A stretch of 64,000 nucleotides of DNA from Treponema primitia ZAS-2 (GTDB taxonomy: Bacteria; Spirochaetota; Spirochaetia; Treponematales; Breznakiellaceae). The translations under genes and the position numbers were made by a program. Positions 3,159 through 59,479 of the stretch are shown one piece after another (the stretch's first letter is position 1; each line of letters begins with the position of its first letter). The notes below the pieces were generated by a model. That model was not told the DNA's origin and did not search any database. It worked only from the letters and a program-made list of their open reading frames with translations. The stretch lies in assembly GCF_000214375.1 (NCBI RefSeq), contig NC_015578.1, forward strand, positions 930,001 through 994,000, given 5' to 3'.

Positions 3159-3419
3159 AGAAATGTTACCGGAAGTTCGGTCAAAGAAATGGCAAATAAG
3201 CAATATATTTGCTTATTGAATAAATTTCCTGTATTGACTATGATACTCCTATGTTTCTGGCAACGACAAACATAAAAGCAGACTTCCCGCGACGGCTCCC
3301 GGCTCCATTATGCTTTAGCTAAAAATCAGCAGGGTAGTTCAGTTATTAACATTTATCTGTCTGTTATTTTGTTTCAAGGGATAATTTGGCTTCAATCTGT
3401 TCCGGGGTGTATCCCTTTT
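3159..3419. other. Non-coding gap between convergent genes
   Basis: No gene seen. The only clear structure is a 9-bp inverted repeat (AATAAGCAA / TTGCTTATT) at 3195-3217 with a 5-nt loop, possibly a weak terminator for the minus-strand thi operon. Confidence 0.4.
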
Positions 3420-4490
3420 TTATCGGACAAACCTGATAAGCCCCTCATCAATACGAAGGATCACAGTGCTGTCCTTTTGGGGCAGACCGGCGCGAGGGCC
3501 GGTTTCCACGGTGCAGAGCGTACCCCCGGGAAGTTCCAGTTCCAGGCTAAGCCGGTCCCCGGTGAATCCGCTTCCCCGGTAAACGGCGGTACAAGCAGCT
3601 TCCCCGGAAGCCGGCTGGGCGGCGGCAGGCGGGTGAACGGTTAATGCATCCCGGGGTACAAAGAGCAGGGACCCTGCGGGGTCCCAGGTTGGCATATCAT
3701 CTGCAGCAGGGACACGCAGTTTTCCTAAGGGGGAGCTGACCAGGGTCCCATTCTGCCCGGTTTCAAGGATGGTGCAGTCCAGGACCAGGCCTGCCCCGAA
3801 GAAGCGGGCGCCAAATTCGGTTTTGGGGGAGAGGAAGAGTTCCCGGGGGGTGCCGGTTTCGACGATCCTGCCTGAAGACATGAGGGCGATACGGTCCCCC
3901 AGGGCGGCAGCTTCCTCCCGGTCATGGGTAACAAAAATACAGGGCACAGCGGTACGGGAAGGAATCAGGCGGAATTCTTCCCGCAGGGAACGGCGCAGGG
4001 GGGCGTCCAGGCTGGAGAAAGGTTCGTCCAGCAGCAGTGCCCGGGGCCTGGCTGCCAGGGCGCGGGCAATGGCGACCCGCTGCCGTTCGCCCCCGGAAAG
4101 GGTATCTATGCGCCGATTTTCATACCCGGATAGTTTTACTATTCCCAGTACTTCGGTGACAATACGCCGCCGTTCTGCCCGGGAAATGCCGTGGATAAAG
4201 GGGCCGTAGGCGATGTTCTTTCCCGCGCTTAGATGGGGGAAAAGGGCCAGGTCCTGAAAAACCACAGAAATACTGCGTTTCCAGGGAGGAAGTTCCCCTA
4301 TGTCCTCTCCGTCTATCAGTATATCCCCCGCCTCGGCCTGAATGATCCCCGCAATAAGACTGAGGGCAGTGGTTTTGCCGCATCCTGAGGGCCCGGCCAA
4401 TACCAGGGTTTCCCCTTCCTTAACGGAAAGGTCCAGGGTAACCGAAAAATCTTCATAGGATTTACGCAGTCCCCGTATTTCAATAGCCAT
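3420..4490 (-). CDS. thiQ: Thiamine-type ABC transporter ATP-binding protein
   Basis: The 356-residue ATPase energises import of thiamine or a thiamine phosphate. It shows Walker A GPSGCGKTT (about residues 34-42), signature LSGGERQRV, Walker B LLLDEPFSSLD and a switch His in FVTHDREEA. At ~356 residues it is longer than the enterobacterial ThiQ (~230); the extra C-terminal ~120 residues look like a TOBE-type regulatory domain as in FbpC/CysA ATPases. The start overlaps the permease stop by 11 bp, so translation is probably coupled. Thiamine specificity is inferred from the binding protein and the TPP riboswitch. Its 3' 230 bp are duplicated at the left end of the window. Confidence 0.85.
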   Translation of the reverse strand: MAIEIRGLRKSYEDFSVTLDLSVKEGETLVLAGPSGCGKTTALSLIAGIIQAEAGDILIDGEDIGELPPWKRSISVVFQDLALFPHLSAGKNIAYGPFIHGISRAERRRIVTEVLGIVKLSGYENRRIDTLSGGERQRVAIARALAARPRALLLDEPFSSLDAPLRRSLREEFRLIPSRTAVPCIFVTHDREEAAALGDRIALMSSGRIVETGTPRELFLSPKTEFGARFFGAGLVLDCTILETGQNGTLVSSPLGKLRVPAADDMPTWDPAGSLLFVPRDALTVHPPAAAQPASGEAACTAVYRGSGFTGDRLSLELELPGGTLCTVETGPRAGLPQKDSTVILRIDEGLIRFVR

Positions 4491-7611: not shown

Positions 7612-8325
7612 TTAGAGAATCGCTGCGGCGCCCTGGTTGATGAGATTCGCCTGGTATCCCGCGCCGAAACCATTGTCAATGTTTACCACCGAGATCCCCG
7701 GTGCGCAGGAGGTGATCATGCCCAGGAGCGCCGAGAGGCCCCCGAAAGAGGCGCCGTAGCCTACGCTGGTGGGGACCGCGATAACCGGCACGGAAATCTG
7801 CCCTGCCAGCACACCAGCTAGTGCTCCCTCCATACCCGCCACAGCCACCACTACCCGGGCCTTGCGTATATCAGGGAGACGGCGAAACAGGCGGTGTATC
7901 CCCGCAATGCCCACATCGTTGATCAGTTCTACTTTGCTGCCCAGGAATTCTGCGGACAGGGCGGCCTCTTTGGCGATGGGGAGGTCCGAGGTCCCTGCGG
8001 CTACCACCGCAATCAGGCCTTGCAAGTCGGTCTTGGGGCGGACCCTGCCCACCATGAGGATCCGGGAAATGGCGTCGTATTCGGTTTCGGGGAAACGGCT
8101 GAGTACCCGGTCCGCCAGGGCTTGGTCCGCCTTAGTACCCAGTACCGGGATGCCCTGCTCGCGCATCTTTACTATGATGGCCTCTGCCTGGTCCGTAGTT
8201 TTTCCTGAACAGAACACTACCTCGGGGTAACCGGTCCGCTTGTCCCGGTAGGTATCAATGACCGCGAAGCCCAGGGAGTCTTCGGTCCCGGAACTTTCAG
8301 GGTCTTTATTTTCCGGCAAATCCAT
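7612..8325 (-). CDS. larB: Nickel-pincer cofactor biosynthesis protein LarB
   Basis: LarB carboxylates and hydrolyses nicotinic acid adenine dinucleotide, the first step to the nickel-pincer nucleotide (established for the family). The PurE-like C-terminal domain is evident: VVAAGTSDLPIAKEA, VAVAGMEGALAGVLAG and PVIAVPTSVGYG. The chosen ATG at 8325 has GAGAGG upstream and gives 237 residues; a longer in-frame start at 8394 would lie deep inside larC. It overlaps larC by 20 bp and is the last gene of larECB. Confidence 0.93.
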   Translation of the reverse strand: MDLPENKDPESSGTEDSLGFAVIDTYRDKRTGYPEVVFCSGKTTDQAEAIIVKMREQGIPVLGTKADQALADRVLSRFPETEYDAISRILMVGRVRPKTDLQGLIAVVAAGTSDLPIAKEAALSAEFLGSKVELINDVGIAGIHRLFRRLPDIRKARVVVAVAGMEGALAGVLAGQISVPVIAVPTSVGYGASFGGLSALLGMITSCAPGISVVNIDNGFGAGYQANLINQGAAAIL

Positions 8326-9712
8326 CTTTGATGATCCTCTCAGCTTCTTCCAGTGATATATTCCGTTCCCGGGCCAGAGCGGCACGGTCTTCAAATTCTA
8401 CCTTTGAGCGCAGCTTTTCTGCGCCGTAAAAAACTGTTTTTCGCCGGGCGTTTCCCAGGTCCGGGCCAAGCTGGTCCTCTTCCCGGCGGAGGGAAAGCCG
8501 TCTGACCGGGGTTTCCCGGAACCCGATGGTGGTGGATTTACGGAACAGGGTTTCCCTGAGAGGGTTGAGCTTTTCCGGGCCGGTCAAAACCGAAACAATG
8601 GTCCCGGGCCGGGACTTTTTCATCACGCAGGGGGTGAAGGTTACATCCAGTGCACCGGCAGCAAAGAGGCTCTCCATGAGGAAGCCCAGGGCTTCGCCGC
8701 TCATGTCGTCGATGTTAGCCTCCATGAGGGTCAGTTCCTCGGTTTTCCAGGGCGCCGCCTCCGCATTTTGCAACGCAGTAATGGTGTTTTTGCCGGGATC
8801 CTCTTCCCTCAGGGAAATTCTGAGCAGGTTGGGCCGTTCCATTTTTCGGGTACCGATGCCGTAGCCGGTTTTGATTTCCCGGAAACTCCGGACATCCGTA
8901 AATTCATCCACCATGGAAGCCAGGATTGCCGCCCCGGTGGGGGTGGTCATTTCCTTATTGAAGCCCCCGGTTTTGACGGGCATTCCCCGGGTAAGGATCA
9001 CCGTGGCCGGGGCGGGTACCGGCAAAATCCCGTGGGCGCAGCGTACCGTGCCGCCCCCCAGTTCGACTTCCCCGCAGGTAACCCGGTCCGGCTTGATCAG
9101 GTCCAGGCATATTGCCGCGCCTACAATATCTATTATCGAATCCAGGGCGCCAACTTCGTGGAAGCTTACTTCTTCCACTGAGCGCCCATGTACCTGGGCT
9201 TCCGCTTCGGCAATACGGGTAAAAATGTCCAGGGCCCGCTTCTTTGCCCCTTCGCTCAGTGCGGAGCCCTGAATGATGGCCCGGATATCCTTCCAGGTCC
9301 TGCCGTGGCTGTGCTGGCCGCCCCCCCCATGGGTATGTTCCTGTGTAGGGTGAGGTACGTTAGTATGTGTATCGTCATGGGTATGCGAATGCGCGTCATT
9401 GTGAGTATGGTGATGGGTACCGTCATGTGTATGGGACTGTGCATCGCCATGTGTATGGGGTTGTGCACCGTCATGTGTATGGGAAGGTGCATCATCTTGG
9501 ACAAGGGGCGTTTCATCCCCAAGATCAACCACCGCATGGGTTCCGGAGATGCCTCCCCGCTGGTCCCGTTCAAAACGGAGTTCCCAGCCCTCAATGCCGA
9601 GCTTGCCCAGCTCTGTACGGAGCGCTTCTGGGTCGACCCCCAGGTCCATAAAGGCCCCCAGGGTCATATCCCCGGAAATACCGGCTGAACAGTCAAAATG
9701 AAGGGTTTTCAA
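8306..9712 (-). CDS. larC: Nickel insertion protein LarC with His-rich insert
   Basis: LarC is the CTP-dependent nickel cyclometallase that inserts Ni into the pincer cofactor. The N-terminus FDCSAGISGDM and the C-terminal SRPGTIVSVLTGP segment are typical. In Lactiplantibacillus LarC is made by a ribosomal frameshift between two ORFs; here it is one continuous 468-codon frame. Residues ~75-130 hold a low-complexity array of about eight HTHD/HTHG-like octapeptides, encoded by imperfect 24-bp repeats (about 9330-9500), a probable nickel store. It lies 9 bp after larE and overlaps larB. Confidence 0.93.
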   Translation of the reverse strand: MKTLHFDCSAGISGDMTLGAFMDLGVDPEALRTELGKLGIEGWELRFERDQRGGISGTHAVVDLGDETPLVQDDAPSHTHDGAQPHTHGDAQSHTHDGTHHHTHNDAHSHTHDDTHTNVPHPTQEHTHGGGGQHSHGRTWKDIRAIIQGSALSEGAKKRALDIFTRIAEAEAQVHGRSVEEVSFHEVGALDSIIDIVGAAICLDLIKPDRVTCGEVELGGGTVRCAHGILPVPAPATVILTRGMPVKTGGFNKEMTTPTGAAILASMVDEFTDVRSFREIKTGYGIGTRKMERPNLLRISLREEDPGKNTITALQNAEAAPWKTEELTLMEANIDDMSGEALGFLMESLFAAGALDVTFTPCVMKKSRPGTIVSVLTGPEKLNPLRETLFRKSTTIGFRETPVRRLSLRREEDQLGPDLGNARRKTVFYGAEKLRSKVEFEDRAALARERNISLEEAERIIKDGFAGK

Positions 9713-10599: not shown

Positions 10600-10655
10600 T
10601 GAAAACTGTCCGTGTATAGCAATTCAGTTTATGATAGCTGTGTGGGGTAGTGACC

Positions 10656-10798
10656 GGGCGGGGTGGGGATTTCCCCCCTCCCCCTAACCTGTAGAATCCG
10701 CCTCCGTCAGCCCGCTACGCGGTCTGCTACGGCGGGGAATTCCAGAAAGAACCCACTTGCGTGGGGGAGGGGGGAGAGGGGAAATCCCCACCCCGCCC
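10656..10798 (+). repeat. Covarying hairpin repeat, copy A
   Basis: The outer arms (GGGCGGGGTGGGGATTTCCC against GGGAAATCCCCACCCCGCCC) are complementary over ~20 bp and more. The core contains TAACCTGTAGAATCCGCC, a TCCGTCAGC / GCTACGG inner stem with a CCCGCTACGCGG tip, and GGGGAATTCC. Unlike other copies it has an added small hairpin (CCCACTTGCGTGGG) in the 3' side. Confidence 0.85.
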
Positions 10799-10979
10799 TG
10801 CCTTTATCCTCATATAGGTACCTAAAAGCGGTTGCTATGCACAATCGCATGGAATGCCTGTTTTTCCAATGTTGACTTAAGGCGCCGTGGTTGGAGGGAT
10901 TGTCCGCCTGTCGCCTTTAGCCCAAGAGGTTGTTAAACACAATGGACAGAAGGCCTGTTTTCTCAATATTGACCCAAGG

Positions 10980-11108
10980 CTCCGGGAGGGGCGGGGATAC
11001 CTCTGGGGGCGTCTATGGAATTCCCCGCCGTAGCAGACCCGCGTAGCGGGGCTGACGGAGGCGGACTCAACATGTTAGCCCCCGGAGGTATCCCCGCCCC
11101 TCCCGGAG
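10980..11108 (-). repeat. Covarying hairpin repeat, copy B
   Basis: Outer arms CTCCGGGAGGGGCGGGGATA and TATCCCCGCCCCTCCCGGAG are perfectly complementary but differ in sequence from those of copy A. The core (GGAATTCCCCGCCGTAGCAG ... GCTGACGGAGGCGGACTC) is conserved, in reverse orientation relative to copy A. It ends 18 bp beyond the stop of the MFS gene and could also act as its terminator. Confidence 0.85.
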
Positions 11109-11126
11109 AATAGAGCCACCTATTGG

Positions 11127-12332
11127 TTAAACAGGTTTCTTAATAGTCGCCGCATACACCGAATTCAGTAACCCCAAAAAAGCCGAAATGGTAAAAAGCA
11201 CCTCGATACCCGTAACTTTCCAGATCCAGCCCCCCATAAGGGCGATAAAGATGCTGATCACGTGGTTTACGGATATCCCCGTGGAAAGGGTGGCGGTGAC
11301 TTCCTCCTGGCTGGAAGCGATATCCTGCACATAGACATTGGTTGCCATGCTGGCCAGGGAGATGATGGCGTCCAACACGTAGTTTGCGCAGACCACCATA
11401 AAGGCGATATCCCGGGGGAAGATCCGGTGGGCAAAACCGTAGAAGAAACAAACCACCACCAGGATCAGGGTGTCGCTGACCATGATGATTTTATACCCTA
11501 CCTTATCGATAAGTTTTCCGATCAGGGGGTTAAAGACGATGCCGAAGGCGGCGCTTACCGCCATGAGCAGGGAGATTACCGAGGCATCGGCGCCGTACTG
11601 GAGGATCAGCACATAGGGGGCAAAGGTGAGGAAGACCTGCTTCCGGGCGCCATAAAAGACCTCCAGCATATAGAACTTGGAGAATTTTTTGGCAAAGTAG
11701 AAACGCCGGCGCTGTACCTTTTCGGTGGATTCTTCCATGGGCAGCACAACCACCAGGGCGGCGGCCATAATGGCAAAGGATAGGGCAAAGACTACCCTGA
11801 AAAAGAGGCTATCGTTCCGGCTGTACCCCAGCTTGGCGAAGATGAAAAACAGGGCCGATACCAGGATGAACCCGGTGATCCTGCCTGCCTGATCCATGGC
11901 GCCGGTCACCCCCAGGGCCCTGCCCCCGGTTTCTTTTTTTGCCAGGTGCATTGATACGGTGCTCCGCAGGGGCAGGACAATGTGCTCCCCCATGCTGAAG
12001 AGGACCATGACAATTATCACCTGGACCTTTCCGGTTCCCACCAGGAGGAAGCTCCCCAGCCCGACAGTCAGGAATATAACCCCGATCTTGAACACCCGGT
12101 TTTCCGAAAGCCGGTACATCAGGGCAAAGATCAGTACCACCAAAAGCCCGGGGATTTCCCGGAAAAATTCCACCACCCCCCGTTCAAAGCTGGTAATGTG
12201 GACCAGTTCCGCCAGGTAATTATCCTGTATACCCCGGTACAAGCCATAGGCAATACCATATAACAGGATAACCGAAAGAAACCGGGTGTATTTAACCCCG
12301 GGACGATAAATATCTTTGAAGGATAGTTTCAT
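11127..12332 (-). CDS. Major facilitator superfamily transporter
   Basis: The 401-residue protein has 12 predicted membrane segments in two halves separated by a basic loop (EKVQRRRFYFAKKFSKF near residue 205). The substrate cannot be told from sequence. Its ATG overlaps the last base of the upstream stop (TAATG), so it is translated with the DUF3842 gene and the nitroreductase gene as one operon. Hairpin repeat B follows its stop. Confidence 0.85.
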   Translation of the reverse strand: MKLSFKDIYRPGVKYTRFLSVILLYGIAYGLYRGIQDNYLAELVHITSFERGVVEFFREIPGLLVVLIFALMYRLSENRVFKIGVIFLTVGLGSFLLVGTGKVQVIIVMVLFSMGEHIVLPLRSTVSMHLAKKETGGRALGVTGAMDQAGRITGFILVSALFFIFAKLGYSRNDSLFFRVVFALSFAIMAAALVVVLPMEESTEKVQRRRFYFAKKFSKFYMLEVFYGARKQVFLTFAPYVLILQYGADASVISLLMAVSAAFGIVFNPLIGKLIDKVGYKIIMVSDTLILVVVCFFYGFAHRIFPRDIAFMVVCANYVLDAIISLASMATNVYVQDIASSQEEVTATLSTGISVNHVISIFIALMGGWIWKVTGIEVLFTISAFLGLLNSVYAATIKKPV

Positions 12333-23242: not shown

Positions 23243-24607
23243 TCATCCAAACAAAGCTTTTATCGCAGATTTTAAATCCCCCACTGCATTCAGCCCCCCG
23301 GTTTCCCCGCTTTCCTGACGGTCTATGGGGCCCAGGAACTGTTCGAAGCCCAGGCTTCGGGCCGTTTTGATCCGCCCCGGGAGGCGCCTGACCGGACGTA
23401 TCTCGCCGGCCAGAGACAATTCCCCGGCTATGGCAGCGTCTGAGGGGAGGGGAAGCCCGGTTCGGGCGGAGTAGAGGGCCATGGCCAGGGCCAGTTCTAC
23501 CCCGACCTCGGCGATCCGAATGCCCCCGGCCACATTGACGTACAGGTCGTGGTCCGAAAGCCGCAGATTCAGGTGCTTTTCCAGGGTGGCTGCCACCCTG
23601 GAGACCCGGGCAGAGTCGATGCGGTCGGAAAACACCCGGCTCATGGCGCCCTTGGCGGGTACTGCCAGGGCCTGAATCTCCACCAGCAGGGTCCGGGAAC
23701 CCTCCAGTACCGCAGCGGTGACCGTACCCGGGGGCAGTCCCCCCTCACGCTGTACCAGGAAGAGCAGGGAGGGGTCCGCCACCGGGGAAAGCCCCCGTTC
23801 ACCCATGACAAAAATGCCGATTTCGTCCACCGAGCCGAAGCGGTTCTTGGTCGCCCTGAGAAAGCGGCTGTCCCCTTCATTTGAGGCGGCCCCTTCAAAA
23901 TACAATACCGTGTCTACCATGTGTTCCAGAGTTTTGGGCCCTGAGATCAGCCCTTCCTTGGTCACATGGGCCACCAGAAACAGGGCGGCGTCATGCTCTT
24001 TGACCCAGGAGATGAGTTCCCAGGAACAGTACTTCATCTGGTTTACCGTGCCCGGTGCGGGGCCAGCTTCGTCGCTGTGCAGGGTCTGGGCGGAATCCAC
24101 CATGATGATCACCGGTTTAACCGCCTCCAGGATGGTTTCGATTTCCGAAAGCCTCCCGGTGCAGCAGATTTCGATATTGTCCCCTTTTAAACCCAGGCGG
24201 TCCGCCCGCATACGCACCTGCCCGGCGGATTCTTCCCCGGAAACATAGAGGACTCGGCCCCGGGTTTCAGCAGATGCCGCAGCCTGGAGCAGCAGTGTAG
24301 ACTTCCCAATCCCCGGTTCGCCCCCCACCAGGATGGCGGATCGTTTCATAATGCCCCCGCCCAGGACTCGGTCCAGTTCTCCGATACCACTGCCGATACG
24401 GGTCCCCTCCTGGGGATCCACCGACGACAGGGGGTAAGACTGGGGCGGCGCCGAGCGTCCCGGAGAACGGCTTCCCCCCTGGCCTGAGCTTACGGGTGTT
24501 TCAATAAGGGTATTCCACTCCCCGCATTCAGGACAGCGGCCCAGCCACTTGGGTTCCTCGTGGCCGCAGCCGGTACATTTGAAGATGAAGGCTTTCTGCT
24601 TTTTCAT
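23243..24607 (-). CDS. radA: DNA repair protein RadA
   Basis: RadA is a RecA-like branch-migration ATPase used in recombination repair. The 454-residue protein has an N-terminal zinc finger (CTGCG...CPECG, residues ~10-28), Walker A GGEPGIGKST, the RadA-specific KNRFGSVDEIG motif and a C-terminal Lon-type domain (DLYVNVAGGIRIAEVGVELA, AGELSLAGEIRPV). The ATG at 24607 begins MKKQKAF; longer in-frame starts lack the promoter geometry. No SD is visible, and the -10 lies 9 nt before the ATG. Confidence 0.95.
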   Translation of the reverse strand: MKKQKAFIFKCTGCGHEEPKWLGRCPECGEWNTLIETPVSSGQGGSRSPGRSAPPQSYPLSSVDPQEGTRIGSGIGELDRVLGGGIMKRSAILVGGEPGIGKSTLLLQAAASAETRGRVLYVSGEESAGQVRMRADRLGLKGDNIEICCTGRLSEIETILEAVKPVIIMVDSAQTLHSDEAGPAPGTVNQMKYCSWELISWVKEHDAALFLVAHVTKEGLISGPKTLEHMVDTVLYFEGAASNEGDSRFLRATKNRFGSVDEIGIFVMGERGLSPVADPSLLFLVQREGGLPPGTVTAAVLEGSRTLLVEIQALAVPAKGAMSRVFSDRIDSARVSRVAATLEKHLNLRLSDHDLYVNVAGGIRIAEVGVELALAMALYSARTGLPLPSDAAIAGELSLAGEIRPVRRLPGRIKTARSLGFEQFLGPIDRQESGETGGLNAVGDLKSAIKALFG

Positions 24608-24616
24608 AGCTGGGTT

Positions 24617-24646
24617 AGTATAGCAAGAAATTCCCAGTTTAACCAA
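24617..24646 (-). promoter_or_regulatory. radA promoter, possibly leaderless
   Basis: On the minus strand TTGGTT (24646-24641), 18 bp, TATACT (24622-24617), then 9 nt (AACCCAGCT) and the ATG. No ribosome-binding site lies between. Confidence 0.55.
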
Positions 24647-24658
24647 TAGCGGCTCTTC

Positions 24659-24787
24659 TCTCCAGGAGGGGCGTGGGCGATCCTAGGGGCTAACATGTTG
24701 AGTCCGCCTCCGTCAGCCCGCTATGCGGTCTGCTACGGCGGGGAATTCCATAGACGCCCCCAGGATCACCCCCGCCCCTCCTGGAGA
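24659..24787 (+). repeat. Covarying hairpin repeat, copy C
   Basis: Outer arms TCTCCAGGAGGGGCGTGGGC and CCCCGCCCCTCCTGGAGA pair with one or two irregularities. The core, TAACATGTTGAGTCCGCC ... GCTACGGCGGGGAATTCC, is almost identical to copy B reversed, while the arms differ by paired changes (for example CTCCAGG/CCTGGAG here, CTCCGGG/CCCGGAG in B). Confidence 0.85.
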
Positions 24788-25065
24788 CATGGGTCAACAT
24801 TGAAGGAAAAGGTATTCCGTACCATTGGGTATAGCCATCATTTGAAAGAATATTTTACAGTTATCCGCAGTAAAATTGTGCTATACAAACGGTAGGGGGT
24901 GCCGTAGACCACGGCTACACATAACGGTATGCAATACATGGGGGCTTTGGTTCAACATTGGGGAAACAGGTATTCCGTAGGTTGGGTGCAGCCTACCGAT
25001 TTAAGGCATCCCTTATAGTTACCTACAGCAATGTTTTTTAAGGTAGGTGTATGGGAATAGAGGCA

Positions 25066-25186
25066 GGGGCGGGAGGGCAATACCTCCGCCCCCCGTCTCT
25101 GGAATTCCTCCCCGGAGCAGACCCGCAGGGGCTGACGGAGGGGAATTCTACAGGTTAGGGGGGTGGGGGTATTGCCCTCCCGCCCC
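25066..25186 (-). repeat. Covarying hairpin repeat, copy D
   Basis: Outer arms GGGGCGGGAGGGCAATACC and GGTATTGCCCTCCCGCCCC are perfectly complementary and unlike those of the other copies. The core keeps GGAATTCC, AGCAGACC, GCTGACGGAGG and TCTACAGGTTAG. It ends 52 bp before the stop of the next minus-strand gene. Confidence 0.85.
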
Positions 25187-25238
25187 GGTCACTAACCCAA
25201 TACAGTCATCATAAACAGAATAGCTGTGAGAGAACGAG

Positions 25239-26414
25239 CTATTGACCCGCCGATACGCTCAGAGTATACCTGCTATCTTCCAGGGGGTCCTTATCAAGTG
25301 GGGTGATCCTGAGATAGTAAGTTCCCGGGCTGAGGGTGACCTTAAGATAAGCATCCCAGAACCCTCCTGAATCGTCGTCTTCGGTGATCTTCACCCCATC
25401 GGCATCCATCAGTTCAAGAAAGGTGTCCAGATAATTGTCCGCAGCGGTGGTGTGGATTTCGTAGGTTCCCTGGCGGGTAATTTGCAGCCGGACCCAATCC
25501 TCGTCAAAGGCATCAAGGAAGTTTCGCTCTTGGGAGGTGCCGATCTGTATATCCTTGGCCCGTGCCATGGTATCGTCGTTTTCATATTGATCGGCCTTAA
25601 CCGGGTCCCGGAATTCGCAATGGAGGGAGTACCGGCCCAGGGCGCCCTGGTAGGTGCTGACCATGATGTAGACCGTTCCCGGCGCCAGAATATCAACAAC
25701 AATTTTGGCATTTCCCTGGTCTCCGGAATCATCATCCTGGGCTATACGATCTTCCCAGTCATCGTAGACTGAAAGAAGGGTGTCCATGGTTCCTTCGGTG
25801 TAAATTGTAAGACGGCCCCTGCCGGGAATCGGGAGGCTGTACCAGTCGATGTCCTCGGGATAGGTGAAATAACCCGTTATGGCGGACCCCATGGTAATCG
25901 GCGTTGCTTCGTCCTTGGTGTTGTTCGGTTCCGTGGTATCTATCAGCAGGGTTTCCACCACATACCGGAAGCGGTAGGGGCCGGAGGCATTTTCCGTGGC
26001 TCCAGCCAGCCTGACCCCGGCTACCTTGATGGTATAGCTGATCCCGGGTTCGACAAAATATTCGATCCTAGCATTCTGATTATTCCCAACATCGTCATTT
26101 TCTTTTAGTAAGGTATCACCCCTGTAGAGTTCCATAACCGTATCGGTATTCCCGTCGGTTTCCGCTACCAGGAGCCCCTCAAAAGTGGGGGTAAGGCTAA
26201 ACCAGTCTTCATCATTTGTATGGAGGGTCCTTTCGAGCCACCTAAGGGGCTCGACTGGGACGGGCTTGTGTTTGCTGTCCGGTTCATAAAGATCCGGCGC
26301 TATCTCATTTTCTTCCCCAAGCTCGCTCCCGGGCTCTACCTGGGGAGTTCCTGCACAGTTCTGTAATAATAGCAAAAACAGTAAAGCAGTATATAATCCC
26401 ATCCTTTTGAGCAT
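25239..26414 (-). CDS. Lipoprotein with three pre-peptidase C-terminal (PPC-like) domains
   Basis: The 391-residue protein starts at the ATG at 26414 (TGGAG 6 nt upstream). A signal sequence ends LLLLQNCAG, a spirochaetal lipobox. The mature part has three ~100-residue beta-sandwich repeats, each with an acidic D-W-[FY] strand (NDEDWFSLTP, PEDIDWYSLPI, FDEDWVRLQI), a DT..ELYxGDTLLxENDD-type calcium-like loop, and a closing G..Y.LR(V/I) strand (GTYYLRITPLD). PPC domains usually accompany secreted enzymes; here no catalytic domain is present, so a surface binding or scaffold role is inferred. Confidence 0.75.
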   Translation of the reverse strand: MLKRMGLYTALLFLLLLQNCAGTPQVEPGSELGEENEIAPDLYEPDSKHKPVPVEPLRWLERTLHTNDEDWFSLTPTFEGLLVAETDGNTDTVMELYRGDTLLKENDDVGNNQNARIEYFVEPGISYTIKVAGVRLAGATENASGPYRFRYVVETLLIDTTEPNNTKDEATPITMGSAITGYFTYPEDIDWYSLPIPGRGRLTIYTEGTMDTLLSVYDDWEDRIAQDDDSGDQGNAKIVVDILAPGTVYIMVSTYQGALGRYSLHCEFRDPVKADQYENDDTMARAKDIQIGTSQERNFLDAFDEDWVRLQITRQGTYEIHTTAADNYLDTFLELMDADGVKITEDDDSGGFWDAYLKVTLSPGTYYLRITPLDKDPLEDSRYTLSVSAGQ

Positions 26415-41126: not shown

Positions 41127-41248
41127 GCCGGGGGGGTGGGGATATCCTTCGGGGGCGTCTCTGGAATTCCCTGCTGGAGGAGACCTACCGGGCTCCGTAA
41201 GCAGACTCTACAGGTTAGCCCCCGATGGATATCCCCGCCCCCCCCGGC
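41127..41248 (-). repeat. Covarying hairpin repeat, solo copy E
   Basis: Outer arms GCCGGGGGGGTGGGGATATC and GATATCCCCGCCCCCCCCGGC pair almost perfectly. The core keeps GGAATTCC and ACTCTACAGGTTAG but has diverged in the inner stem (GGAGGAGACC / GGCTCCGTAAGC). Part of the linked ~42-bp unit (CCATTGAACCAAGG, 41112-41125) precedes it. It lies between the convergent stops of the Rsm22-like gene and znuB and could terminate both. Confidence 0.8.
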
Positions 41249-54246: not shown

Positions 54247-56280
54247 ATGAATATAAGGGTGAAGTGCTTTTTTGCCGGTCTCCGGCTCCTTGCGGCGCTC
54301 GTTCTTACGGCGTTGTTTAGCGCCTGTCCCCAGGTGGAGGGTGTAAAGGCTTCCGATAACCGGCTCCTGTCGATTACTGCGTCCCGGGGTGATTTGTCCC
54401 CCTTGTTTAACCCGGATTATACGGATTATGAGCTTTTGGTCCCCTTTGATGCGGAAAGCGTCCGGCTGGAGGCGGTTCCCGGTGACGGAGGCGCCCGGGT
54501 GAGCCCCGGTAGGGTGGTGGAAAAACCCCTCGGCCCGGTGGACACGGTGGTGGTGTTTACCGTATACCCCCAGGACTGGTCGGCGGTCAGAGACTATACG
54601 GTTACGGTCAGGCGGAAAAGCCCGGTTTCCAAAAACACGAACCTGGCCTCGGTGTGGGTAGCGGATAAGGACGGGAACAAATGGCCTTTTTCCGACTATC
54701 ACAATGACAATGATGAACCCCTGGCTTTTTCTCCGGGGCTAACTGCATATACCGTGAAGGTCCCCAATTCCATGGAGCGGATTGCCCTGATCTGCACGCC
54801 AACCAATGAAAACGCCGCTGTAAGTGATACGGGACATTATAAAAAAACCGCTGAATATACCTATACAGAGCTTGCGGTGGGCATTCCTGAGGAGATTAAC
54901 GTTACTGTCACCTCAGAGGACAGGACGGAAACAAAGACCTATACCTTTACCGTCACCAGGGCGGCCCCTGATCCGGGGAACAATCGGCTGCGGAGGCTTT
55001 GGATTAACGGCAAGCTTGCGGCGGATTTTAAAGGCTCGGACGCCGCATATACCGCCAATGTCTCCTGGGCAGATTCAGTAACCCTAAAAGCGGAGGCGGA
55101 AGAACTGGGAGCAAGGATTTATGATAGCACTGATACTGCGATAAACCCGGAAGGCAGCGCTGTAACTGCGGTGCAGGATCTTCCTTTCTCCGGGGCGGGC
55201 GTAATCACCTATACCCTCAGGGTTGCGTCGGTGGACGGATCCGATATGGCTTATACCATAACCCTTACCCGCCTGTCCAAAGATGCCAGCTTGGGCAGTA
55301 TTACGGTGACTGCGACTGCGGCTGGGAGCCTTGAAACCTGGACACCGGCTCTGATCGATTTTCTTCCAACCGATGATAGATCCTGGGCTTACGGCACTGA
55401 AGAAACCCCTTTAATTACCACCCAATCCGCAAACATTACGGTGACCGGGACCCTTCCGACAGGTTCTCTTGCACAGATAAGTTCTCCTTTGGAAAACACC
55501 CTGTCTGAGGGGGTGCATTGCCTGACCCTGACGGTCACCGCCCAGGACACCACGGTCCGTCACACCTACAGTATCTGGCTTGAGCGGCTGCCCGTGGACA
55601 GCAATGCTGATCTGTCGAACCTTCAGGTGCAAGCCGGAGGAATGACCCACACCTTGATCTCATCCTCTCCCTCGCCTGAAACCAATTATTCCCTGTCCAT
55701 ACCGGCGGCAACTGCCGGCGTTACTATTACTGCAACCCCCGCCTCTTCCCTTGCAAAAACCCTGACCGTGAAAGGGAGCAACGTTAGTTTCGGGGCTTCC
55801 CGGAACGTGACTGAAATATCCCCGGGTATAACTACCATTCCTGTGGTGGTTACCGCCCAGGACGGGACCACAAAGACCTATGTGATCACCCTCTACAAGC
55901 CGGGAACTGCGGGCCTCTCCATTACCCTGCTTCTCTCCGATGGGGGTGATTTCATAACTATAGATCGGGACCTGCCGGATTCCAATATATTTATCTATCA
56001 GAATGGCATCGCATCGGGCGCCGGGCATCAGGATCTGCCCAGGACGGTGGAATTTTCCTTCACCGGGGAAACCGGGTATTGGTGGTATGTGGATGGAAAG
56101 AAAAAGGGGAATAATAACGAGTCCCTTCTCATCGACGCCCTTAACTATTCTCTGACAAAACACCGGGTAACCCTGATGGTTCAGCAGGGGGACATTATTA
56201 TTTCCAGAGAAATATTCTTTACCGTTACCATGAATGTTGTGGAGGATGGATTTGATGACTTGCCATCGTATTCTTATTAA
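54247..56280 (+). CDS. Surface lipoprotein with cadherin-like beta-sandwich repeats (cassette 1)
   Basis: The 677-residue protein has a signal sequence ending LTALFSACPQ (lipobox Cys ~28). It is followed by four or five repeats of the cadherin-like beta-sandwich type, each with an L..L.(I/V)..G.L.P.F.P....Y....P pattern and closing (Y)T(I/F)TV.R strands (TYTFTVTRAAPDPGNN, AYTITLTRLSKDAS, TYVITLYKPGTAG). The C-terminal ~100 residues (TGYWWYVDGKKKGNNNESL) form a further sandwich. It is paralogous to the gene at 60978. Adhesion or matrix binding is plausible but unproven. It begins a transcript of three lipoprotein genes. Confidence 0.75.
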   Translation: MNIRVKCFFAGLRLLAALVLTALFSACPQVEGVKASDNRLLSITASRGDLSPLFNPDYTDYELLVPFDAESVRLEAVPGDGGARVSPGRVVEKPLGPVDTVVVFTVYPQDWSAVRDYTVTVRRKSPVSKNTNLASVWVADKDGNKWPFSDYHNDNDEPLAFSPGLTAYTVKVPNSMERIALICTPTNENAAVSDTGHYKKTAEYTYTELAVGIPEEINVTVTSEDRTETKTYTFTVTRAAPDPGNNRLRRLWINGKLAADFKGSDAAYTANVSWADSVTLKAEAEELGARIYDSTDTAINPEGSAVTAVQDLPFSGAGVITYTLRVASVDGSDMAYTITLTRLSKDASLGSITVTATAAGSLETWTPALIDFLPTDDRSWAYGTEETPLITTQSANITVTGTLPTGSLAQISSPLENTLSEGVHCLTLTVTAQDTTVRHTYSIWLERLPVDSNADLSNLQVQAGGMTHTLISSSPSPETNYSLSIPAATAGVTITATPASSLAKTLTVKGSNVSFGASRNVTEISPGITTIPVVVTAQDGTTKTYVITLYKPGTAGLSITLLLSDGGDFITIDRDLPDSNIFIYQNGIASGAGHQDLPRTVEFSFTGETGYWWYVDGKKKGNNNESLLIDALNYSLTKHRVTLMVQQGDIIISREIFFTVTMNVVEDGFDDLPSYSY

Positions 56281-59200
56281 GCTTATACCCTTACTGATAA
56301 TTTCAGCGCTTTTCTTGCCCCGCTGTTCCAACATTTTGGCCTCCCGGGACATTCAGGGTGAAGAAGCCGCCATCCCCCCGGACATGGGCCTGGTCAGGCT
56401 GAACCTGGATAACGGTTCGCCCCTGAACAGAAGTCTGCTGCCTAACCCGGTTTTTGCCTATTACGAACTGGTTTTTACCGATGCGGGGAACAGCGACAAC
56501 AGTATTACTGAGACCATCACCGGTAAAAACACTGCTGTCAGTATAAAAGCGGGGGTATGGAACCTTGCAGTCACCGCCTTTGTAAGGAGGGCGGGGCAAG
56601 ACTTTTCTGCGGCGGCGGGGGAAAGCTCTTCTCCCCTGGTGGTGGAAGCGGGGGGGACTACCAGTGCGGAAATTTTCCTGTATGCCCGCACCGATGGGAA
56701 GGGCAGCTTCTCCTATACCGCCAGCTTTCCCTGGGGATTGGACAAGGCGGAGCTTACCCTTCAGTCCTTTGCTGATCCATCGGTGGAAAAGAAGGTGGAC
56801 CTTCTTGCGTCCCCGGGGCTGACCAATCCCGGTTCCTTTGATGAGCTGCCTTCCGGTTTTTACCTGCTTTTTCTTAGTCTGGAAAAGGATGGGCAGGTCG
56901 CGGGAAAAACCGAAGCGGTCCATATTTATGACAACCTGGATACCCGGGCGGATTATGCCTTTACCGCCTCCGATTTTGCCAAGGCGGCCTTTTTCAGCGG
57001 TACGGTGAGCATGAGTGACGCGCTGTCCGCCGACTATACCATCACCGCTGTCTATCTGTTCAGCTCCGATGGAAATGAGATTTCCTATATGTATGACACT
57101 ACTATTGAATGGCCGGATTGGACCATAAGGGCGCGGGCCTATTCCGGGCCGGCGTACTTTAAGGTAGAGCTTGGTAAGGATACTGATTCTGACGGGAGTC
57201 CTGATATATTCCGCCTGAGCAAATCCCAGCCTATAAACTTGTCCACAGAAGGCAAAAGCGGTATAGTGCTAACGGTTGAGAAGTATGCTATAACCGGGAT
57301 TAGTAGTGTTGTGACGCCGGACCTTACCGAAGCCTTTGAAGGGGATAAAATTACCCTTAATATTGCCCCTGCCACAGGGAAACAGCTTGAAGGGGGTACT
57401 CTGGGCTATACCTACGGCAGCACTACGGTCAAGCTGGATGAATTGGCGGCCGTCCCCTCCTTTACTATGCCCGGAGCGGATATAAGCATTGTTGCGGGAT
57501 TTGAAGATGTCCCTGATGCCGGACTTATTGTGGATGGCGTTCCTGTGACCCCTGCCCCTACTGGCTTGACTACAGCCTTGGCCAATATTGCTACCGATGT
57601 TACAGGTGGTTCATATCCATCTGCTGGCAAGCAGTACACCATCGTTCTTGGGGCTAATGAAGCTATTGGTCCCCAACAGCTTATCTATCCTGGCAAAACT
57701 GTAACCATAACCATTAAAGGCAGCGGAGCGCCCCGCACTGTAAGCCTGTCCACCCCATCAAGCAGCCTTTTTGCCCTGGGAAACGGGGTTACCCTTATCC
57801 TGGATGACAAGATCATCCTGCAAGGTATACACAATAATAATGCTCCATTGGTTGTAGTTAATTCCGGCGCTGTCTTTGAAATGCACGAAAGCACCGGACT
57901 GATAGATAATATCTTTAATGCCACCGGAACACTCGACGGCGGCGGTGGGGTGTATGTAGCTTCCGGCGGTACGTTTACCATGACAGGCGGAACCATTGCC
58001 GATAGCGGCGCTCTTTCCGGCGGCGGCGTGTATGTAGCTTCCGGTGGTAAGTTTGACATGAGTGGCGGGACCATCAGTAGTAATAGTTCTCAACGTGGCG
58101 GCGGCGTGTATGTGGCGTCTGCTGTAACTCCCAGCAGTGGGTTTACCATGACGGGTGGAAGCATATTCGGTAATCATATCAATATATCCAACTTCGGCGG
58201 CGGCGGGGTGTATGTAGCTTCTGGCGGAGAGTTTGTTATGGATGGGGAAAGCACTATCAACGGTAATGGCAACATTTTTGACAATGGTGGCGGGGTGTAT
58301 GTAGCTTCCGGTGGAAAGCTTACCATGAAAGGGAAAAGCAGCATCAGCGGTAATGAAGCCGATGAACGTGGTGGCGGGGTGTATGTAGCTTCCAGCGGAG
58401 AGTTCGTTATGGAGGGTGAAAGTACCATTAGGGGCAATAAGTCTACCGCTGATGGCGGCGGCGGCGGGGTGTATGTTCATTCCGGTGGAGAGTTCGCTAT
58501 GAACGGAGGGATAATCAATAGTAACACTGCCCTTGAAAACGGCGGCGGAGTGTATATGACAGGTGGCGACTTTACCATGAATGGCGGAACCATCAGCGGC
58601 AATACTGCTGCCTCTACCGGCGGCGGAGTGTATATGACAGGTGGCGGCTTTATCATGAATGGCGGAACCATCAGCGGCAATCAAGCCGCCTCTAGCGGCG
58701 GCGGGGTGTCTGTGCCAGGTGGCGTGTTTACCCTGGATGGAGGGACTATCAGCGCCAATACTGTCGACGATGGCTTGAGTGGCGGCTTGGGCGGCGGGGT
58801 GTCTGTGACAACGGGGCTGACGACGTGGGGTAAGTTTGTCATGAAGACAGGAAGCATCGGCGGTAATCAAGCCACATCTAGCGGCGGCGGGGTGTATGTG
58901 AAGGGATTGAATACCGACTTTACCATGGAAGGCGGAACCATCAGCGGTAATACCGCCCCTAATGGCGGCGGGGTATATGCCGGTAGTTGGTTTACCATGG
59001 AGGGGGGAAGTATCAGTGTTAATATCGCCTCCGCTTCCGGCGGCGGGGTATATGTCAAGGAAATCTTCACCTTGACAGGGGGAACCATAACCGGGAATAC
59101 CGCACCCGCAGGCAGCGGGGTGTTTGTAGTATACGACTTTGTTATGGGCGCCGATGCAAGGGTGGCTGCGGATAATCGTGTTTTTATATCAAATAATGTA

Positions 59201-59479
59201 ACGGCTGGTACGGATCCCGGTATTATTGAACTCTCCGGATCCGCTGGGACTGATCCCATAGCCGTAATAGACCTGGACGTTAATTCGGGTTTTGCCGCCG
59301 AGCAATGGGCTGGAAAAACTCTGCTTGAGAGGGGAGGAGGTTTCGGGATGGCAACCCCCCTTCCCCGGAGCCGTTTTATCCTGGGAAATTTTGTTAATCC
59401 CCAGACCCCGTCTGTATCGGTCCCCATCGACCCGGCTCATTATAGTATAGATGCCACCGGGCGTTTGCGGAGACAGTAA
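56255..59479 (+). CDS. Large lipoprotein with parallel beta-helix repeat array (cassette 1)
   Basis: The 1074-residue protein starts at the ATG at 56255 (GGAGG 9 nt upstream), overlapping the previous gene by 26 bp. A signal sequence ends LFLPRCSN. Residues ~25-420 are beta-sandwich domains paralogous to the gene at 62760. Residues ~560-980 are about 15 repeats of the type GGGVYVASGGxFTMxGGTISGNxA, the polymorphic-membrane-protein/right-handed beta-helix pattern found in surface adhesins. At DNA level the repeats are ~70-bp near-identical units (57940-59100). No autotransporter barrel follows, so anchoring is by lipid. Confidence 0.78.
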   Translation: MTCHRILIKLIPLLIISALFLPRCSNILASRDIQGEEAAIPPDMGLVRLNLDNGSPLNRSLLPNPVFAYYELVFTDAGNSDNSITETITGKNTAVSIKAGVWNLAVTAFVRRAGQDFSAAAGESSSPLVVEAGGTTSAEIFLYARTDGKGSFSYTASFPWGLDKAELTLQSFADPSVEKKVDLLASPGLTNPGSFDELPSGFYLLFLSLEKDGQVAGKTEAVHIYDNLDTRADYAFTASDFAKAAFFSGTVSMSDALSADYTITAVYLFSSDGNEISYMYDTTIEWPDWTIRARAYSGPAYFKVELGKDTDSDGSPDIFRLSKSQPINLSTEGKSGIVLTVEKYAITGISSVVTPDLTEAFEGDKITLNIAPATGKQLEGGTLGYTYGSTTVKLDELAAVPSFTMPGADISIVAGFEDVPDAGLIVDGVPVTPAPTGLTTALANIATDVTGGSYPSAGKQYTIVLGANEAIGPQQLIYPGKTVTITIKGSGAPRTVSLSTPSSSLFALGNGVTLILDDKIILQGIHNNNAPLVVVNSGAVFEMHESTGLIDNIFNATGTLDGGGGVYVASGGTFTMTGGTIADSGALSGGGVYVASGGKFDMSGGTISSNSSQRGGGVYVASAVTPSSGFTMTGGSIFGNHINISNFGGGGVYVASGGEFVMDGESTINGNGNIFDNGGGVYVASGGKLTMKGKSSISGNEADERGGGVYVASSGEFVMEGESTIRGNKSTADGGGGGVYVHSGGEFAMNGGIINSNTALENGGGVYMTGGDFTMNGGTISGNTAASTGGGVYMTGGGFIMNGGTISGNQAASSGGGVSVPGGVFTLDGGTISANTVDDGLSGGLGGGVSVTTGLTTWGKFVMKTGSIGGNQATSSGGGVYVKGLNTDFTMEGGTISGNTAPNGGGVYAGSWFTMEGGSISVNIASASGGGVYVKEIFTLTGGTITGNTAPAGSGVFVVYDFVMGADARVAADNRVFISNNVTAGTDPGIIELSGSAGTDPIAVIDLDVNSGFAAEQWAGKTLLERGGGFGMATPLPRSRFILGNFVNPQTPSVSVPIDPAHYSIDATGRLRRQ

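Follow-up and report, generated by a model that had tools for sequence, protein, structure and literature searches.

Paired inverted hairpins with conserved cores and freely varying arms in Treponema primitia ZAS-2 look like a small mobile element

We analyzed a 64-kb stretch, from base 930001 to base 994000, of the chromosome of Treponema primitia ZAS-2, a termite-gut spirochaete; "the window" refers to this whole stretch. It contains five hairpins. The sense strand of a hairpin is defined as the strand that carries the core as it reads in copy 2. In the following list, coordinates are those of the window, energies are from folding, and bit scores are from a covariance model of the hairpin (R1) unless stated otherwise.

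10602..11131 (limits approximate), no strand: insertion A, a minus-strand hairpin, a spacer, and a plus-strand hairpin; congeners lack it at this site
10656..10798, minus strand: hairpin copy 1; -104.8 kcal/mol; 66 bits; has an extra nested mini-hairpin, AAGAACCCACTTGCGTGGGGGAGG
10799..10979, no strand: spacer of pair A, non-coding by sequence (no ORF called), with degraded repeats of flank sequence
10980..11108, plus strand: hairpin copy 2; -100.2 kcal/mol; 125 bits
11011..11078, plus strand: conserved core of copy 2, GTCTATGGAATTCC..CATGTTAG; 70 bits with nhmmer
24578..25252 (limits approximate), no strand: insertion B, a minus-strand hairpin, a spacer, and a plus-strand hairpin; about 50-60 bp at this site in congeners G154, G039, and G156
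24659..24787, minus strand: hairpin copy 3; -95.5 kcal/mol; 114.8 bits
24788..25065, no strand: spacer of pair B, non-coding by sequence (no ORF called)
25066..25186, plus strand: hairpin copy 4; -90.3 kcal/mol; 109.2 bits; core found by nhmmer on the plus strand
41127..41248, plus strand: hairpin copy 5, solitary, with a GGAG/CTCC core variant; -88.6 kcal/mol; 102.9 bits

The five hairpins had been predicted at these positions from the sequence. Folding confirmed all five (-89 to -105 kcal/mol), and the covariance model has exactly five matches in the window, at chromosomal positions 940669 (-), 940989 (+), 954668 (-), 955073 (+), and 971135 (+). As also predicted, the arms of the five are unlike between copies and nearly perfectly complementary within each copy, and they share a conserved core, of which 41127-41248 carries a variant (GGAGGAGACC..GGGCTCC instead of GCAGACC..GCTGACGG). 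The original prediction took the free-standing hairpin as the unit, which misses a mobile insertion that is often an inverted pair: copies 1 to 4 form two such pairs (10656-11108 and 24659-25186), each within one insertion. The window has other repeats as well: a 236-nt direct repeat with 91% identity (1-236 and 3419-3654); short in-frame repeats at 9329-9508, inside the ORF at 8306-9712, which possibly encode a histidine-rich stretch; and many tandem repeats of 66-78 nt at 57941-59131, inside a long ORF (56234-59479).

Comparisons to congeners, whose assemblies are incomplete, revealed insertion at two sites in this one genome. At site A, the alignment of congener G039 stops at position 10601 and starts again at 11131, the two parts being separated by 1 bp; congener G074 is alike, with a separation of 11 bp. 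At site B, where this genome has about 670 bp, the three congeners have about 50-60 bp. Because both pairs are missing from the same site in congeners, each pair is one insertion. The junctions at both sites are too diverged from the congeners to define a target-site duplication. The two flanks of the solitary copy at 41127 match different contigs in congeners, so they gave no readable empty site.

Further copies had been expected elsewhere in the genome and in relatives, and both were found. A first DNA search of the chromosome gave 52 candidates, of which 40 were scored; combining the DNA search, a profile of the core, and the covariance model yields about 49 copies on the 4.06-Mb chromosome. 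Within the same family, 47 of 200 genomes, spanning 17 of 57 genera, have matches to the covariance model, with matches counted up to 19 per genome; for congeners and most other genomes, the copy totals are lower bounds, as the assemblies are incomplete and contigs break at repeats. Of 393 genomes sampled across the phylum, just four match at 1e-6, all of them from the same family, and no match was found in about 376 other spirochaete genomes. Matches to a strict pattern for the core were confined, among genome contigs, to Treponema and Spirochaetaceae MAGs, whose isolate codes suggest an origin in the termite gut; viral contigs had no match to this pattern. Copies in other genera have a similar core, with arms that reach about 45 bp and differ greatly in sequence. 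No orthologous copies that could date single events were found in other genera among the sampled loci.

The pairs have a fixed layout. Where two cores lie on opposite strands less than about 600 bp apart, the minus-strand one always precedes the plus-strand one, with the hairpins facing outward; this holds in 11 of 11 cases in this genome and in 9 of 9 in other genera, which additionally show four same-strand neighbors. The flanks fall into three types (T1, T2, and T3), and 6 of the 11 pairs join a T1 end and a T2 end. The outer ends are imperfect and share short sequences such as TAAAC(T/A)G. Beside seven solitary copies, the opposite outer end is retained without its core, and we propose that some of the single hairpins derive from pairs. 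According to gene calls from a codon-usage script, all copies are intergenic except for one weak copy that overlaps a low-scoring ORF call.

Pairing in this family is far above chance. We aligned 31 copies and set a structure of 40 pairs by hand. In this alignment, 97.5% of cells pair, as compared to 72.2 ± 0.9% when columns are shuffled and at most 56% with slid partners; 267 cells are changed on both sides, versus 73 in the shuffles. The arm helix has 22 pairs, and 99% of its cells are paired. The prediction that changes in the arms are compensatory is upheld in this larger set: 21 of the 22 arm pairs have changes on both sides. The core comprises a GTC/TTA 3x3 loop; a short helix that includes a T.G wobble; a large loop, GGAATTC / CTC(A/T)AC; a helix of five pairs that covaries (CCGCC/GGCGG, CTGCC/GGCAG, TCCCC/GGGGA, among others); and an apical stem-loop whose length differs between copies. 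It does not seem to be a known RNA family, as had been suspected: no Rfam family in the libraries searched matches the window at its gathering score, and a loose-threshold search with hairpins from eight loci gave only sub-threshold matches of the microRNA type. A search of the literature found no paper on such a hairpin family.

The pairing is not symmetric between the strands. We aligned the arms to each other with symmetric scoring and considered the first 29 pairs of 40 copies. On the sense strand of the core, there are 1,068 Watson-Crick pairs, 44 G.T, and 7 A.C (p = 1e-7, with the 40 copies being related). The excess of G.T over A.C holds in both chromosomal orientations (24:1 and 20:6). 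These counts are from related copies; across 16 independent close pairs of copies, single changes led to 19 G.T versus 2 A.C (p = 2e-4). In other genomes the total is 97:45, which may be slightly affected by a preference of the covariance search for G.U, and the bias is reversed in G048 (7:18) and G016 (4:9). Thus the family has significant covariation and tolerates G.U on one strand, as expected for a structured RNA, with these two genomes as exceptions. The T.G wobble beside the 3x3 loop is present in 31 of 31 copies here and in 84 of 85 elsewhere, and the pair adjacent to it varies (C-G, T-A, or A-T). This conserved wobble is a firmer sign of a one-strand fold than the mismatch bias is, and together they fit a fold that is selected on one strand, as RNA or as single-stranded DNA. 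It had been proposed that a folded RNA or cruciform DNA is the target of selection: the asymmetry is consistent with the one-strand form of that idea, and a symmetric cruciform offers no explanation for it.

The other process that had been proposed was arm-by-arm conversion. Between close copies, there are 67 double changes from one Watson-Crick pair to another, versus 26 single changes. In pairs of copies with at least 80% identical arms, 12 of 23 double changes are transversions; these cannot pass through G.U, so they fit a concerted rewriting of the two arms. Also, among copies with identical 45-nt cores, the arms are mostly 30-75% alike (means of 0.51 and 0.64; 48% for shuffled arms), and the flanks are about 50% alike. 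Given these divergent arms around identical cores, as well as the double changes, the arms evolve separately from the core and jointly with each other, which also fits rewriting of both arms in concert. Template switching, described as making and maintaining perfect stems (PMC8794818), can change arms in this way. We did not find a multi-base footprint of it: 12 double changes are adjacent, versus 10.6 expected (P = 0.37). Lasting mismatches are mostly G.U, yet at least half of the double changes are transversions, which suggests that other mismatches are removed, in addition to the copying of arms. The data point to both of the proposed processes, selection on the fold and conversion of the arms, and partly support the original interpretation.

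We believe that these hairpins are the ends of a small non-autonomous mobile element of termite-gut spirochaetes, recognized by structure and with arms that are kept complementary by copying; we give this reading a probability of about 0.6. In the full unit, which would insert into intergenic DNA, a non-coding spacer of 100-450 bp would separate two hairpins in inverted orientation, each about 120-145 nt long (about 200-240 bp if the imperfect outer flanks are included). Each hairpin would consist of an apical core, with fixed internal loops and the T.G wobble, on a 25-45 bp stem of largely free sequence. We infer that a protein supplied in trans reads the hairpin by its shape and its conserved loops, on one strand only, either as RNA or as single-stranded DNA. 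One arm would be copied intramolecularly from the other, during replication or transposition, by template-switch correction, with G.U tolerated in the stem and other mismatches removed. In a more specific version, which we hold tentatively and consider somewhat unlikely, a recombinase reads the ends as folded RNA or single-stranded DNA, and cycles of transposition or replication resynthesize one arm from the other, so that the stem is free and inheritance is limited to the shape and a few loops of the core. Several results count against a mobile element: no autonomous copy or associated transposase was found, no target-site duplication could be defined, the bias is reversed in G048 and G016, and the double changes are not clustered. 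As for the first two, the stretches that we inspected between more distant neighboring copies contain ordinary genes, and no associated transposase was found near the copies.

Could the hairpins be structured RNAs that work for the host? An insulator, 3'-end stabilizer, or attenuator might have spread by insertion and been kept for its effect on neighboring genes; this would account for the strand-specific fold, the conserved internal loops, and the invariant wobble. The placement of the intergenic copies is also suggestive: the 3' side of the hairpin is mostly 30-150 bp from the facing gene, and where a gene ends at the hairpin, the hairpin begins about 20 nt past the stop codon. However, either the start or the end of the facing gene may lie at the hairpin, which therefore keeps no constant sense with respect to that gene. 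About 10 co-directional copies have a TTGAC-like -35 promoter (identified by eye) between the hairpin and the start codon, and hence would lie upstream of that mRNA and outside it. Two sites are empty in congeners, and the distribution is patchy, which also speak against a host role, and we consider such a role unlikely. Nor is there a U-tract after the 3' arm, whose 3' flanks read GGTCACTAACCC, GAGAATGAGCC, and similar. As intrinsic terminators require a U-tract, this rules them out.

Alternatively, there might be no selection on the fold: the hairpins would be quasi-palindromes that template-switch replication alone keeps perfect, within an ordinary MITE recognized by its outer sequence. The concerted rewriting of arms, transversions included, their free divergence around identical cores, and the short sequence shared by outer ends all favor this account. 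But under pure copying, the T.G wobble should be lost to a Watson-Crick pair, and it persists in 115 of 116 copies; G.T should equal A.C, in contrast to 44:7 in this genome; and the internal loops are conserved across genera. We therefore view pure template switching as quite improbable. An element of the REPIN/BIME type, moved by a REP-associated tyrosine transposase (RAYT), would match the inverted doublets and the intergenic location, and that system is known to recognize hairpins on one strand (PMC8266576, PMC3116915). The genome also encodes three Y1_Tnp (RAYT) genes. However, none of these has a copy of the hairpin within about 1.5-2 kb, and the presence of RAYT does not track that of the element: none was seen in the (incomplete) assemblies of the high-copy genomes G016, G020, G145, G146, and G180. 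RAYT was thus rejected as the mobilizer. The units here are also several times larger, and a conserved center with free arms is the reverse of a REPIN, which makes this explanation very improbable indeed.

Returning to the mobile element recognized by structure, it has partial parallels. Bacterial MITEs (such as RU/ERIC or Correia) are non-coding and intergenic, with inverted ends, and their insertion is shown by empty sites. The hairpin element shares all of these features, with empty sites at A and B, but its ends are conserved more as structure than as sequence, and no parent transposase or target duplication was found. Integron attC sites, which have conserved outer boxes and a variable tip, are recognized as a folded single strand in a strand-specific manner; the hairpin element likewise has variable arms and seems to be read on one folded strand, but its tip is conserved, and its copies lie outside cassette arrays. 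REPINs and BIMEs, with their RAYTs, are also short non-coding intergenic palindromes in many copies and inverted doublets, whose hairpins are recognized as single strands and reportedly show compensatory changes in their variable part (PMC3116915, PMC8266576). In REPINs the ends are conserved and the middle varies (PMC3116915), whereas here the center is conserved and the arms vary: the outer arms and ends hold no conserved GTAG-type REP of 20-50 nt. The hairpins here are also 120-145 nt with stems of up to 45 bp, no RAYT is linked, and they occur in just one spirochaete family. Template-switch RNA hairpins also have perfect stems and double changes that need no G.U step, but they were described in RNA genes and microRNAs (PMC8794818), not in dispersed repeats with dozens of paralogues per genome. 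In the actively maintained inverted repeats of Caenorhabditis, the inverted-repeat structure is far more conserved than the sequence, as it is here, but those are long gene-bearing arms in a eukaryote (PMC1803023) rather than a dispersed bacterial hairpin. Overall, the hairpin-pair inserts seem to represent a previously undescribed type of small mobile element; they point to a mobilizer that reads structure more than sequence.

Perfect long stems with double changes have been held to be the best evidence for RNA structure, yet copying of the arms can also maintain them. With about 49 paralogues in one genome, many more across genera, and the conserved wobble as an internal control, the shares of selection and of copying are directly measurable, and the pairs are a natural test of how long hairpins retain their pairing.

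We also noticed some irregular copies. Near chromosomal position 1269108, a hairpin whose 3' arm is truncated has its core about 30 bp from the end of an IS110-family transposase gene (L294:305-1441; Pfam Transposase_20 and DEDD_Tnp_IS110), so this hairpin may have been interrupted by an IS insertion. In another copy (L003, chromosome ~2822072-2822215), about 35 G/C in a row stand in place of one outer arm, probably through slippage or an assembly artefact. The spacers of the pairs at 1414580-1415037 and 1488931-1489505 of the chromosome hold tandem repeats, which in the first of these are repeats of flank sequence. Finally, the nested mini-hairpin, about 24 nt long (AAGAACCCACTTGCGTGGGGGAGG or AAAAACTCGCTTGCGCGAGGGAGG), is present in 10656-10798 and in the copies at chromosomal positions 1034007, 1498126, 2518381, and 2577724, and it may be a second, smaller repeat.
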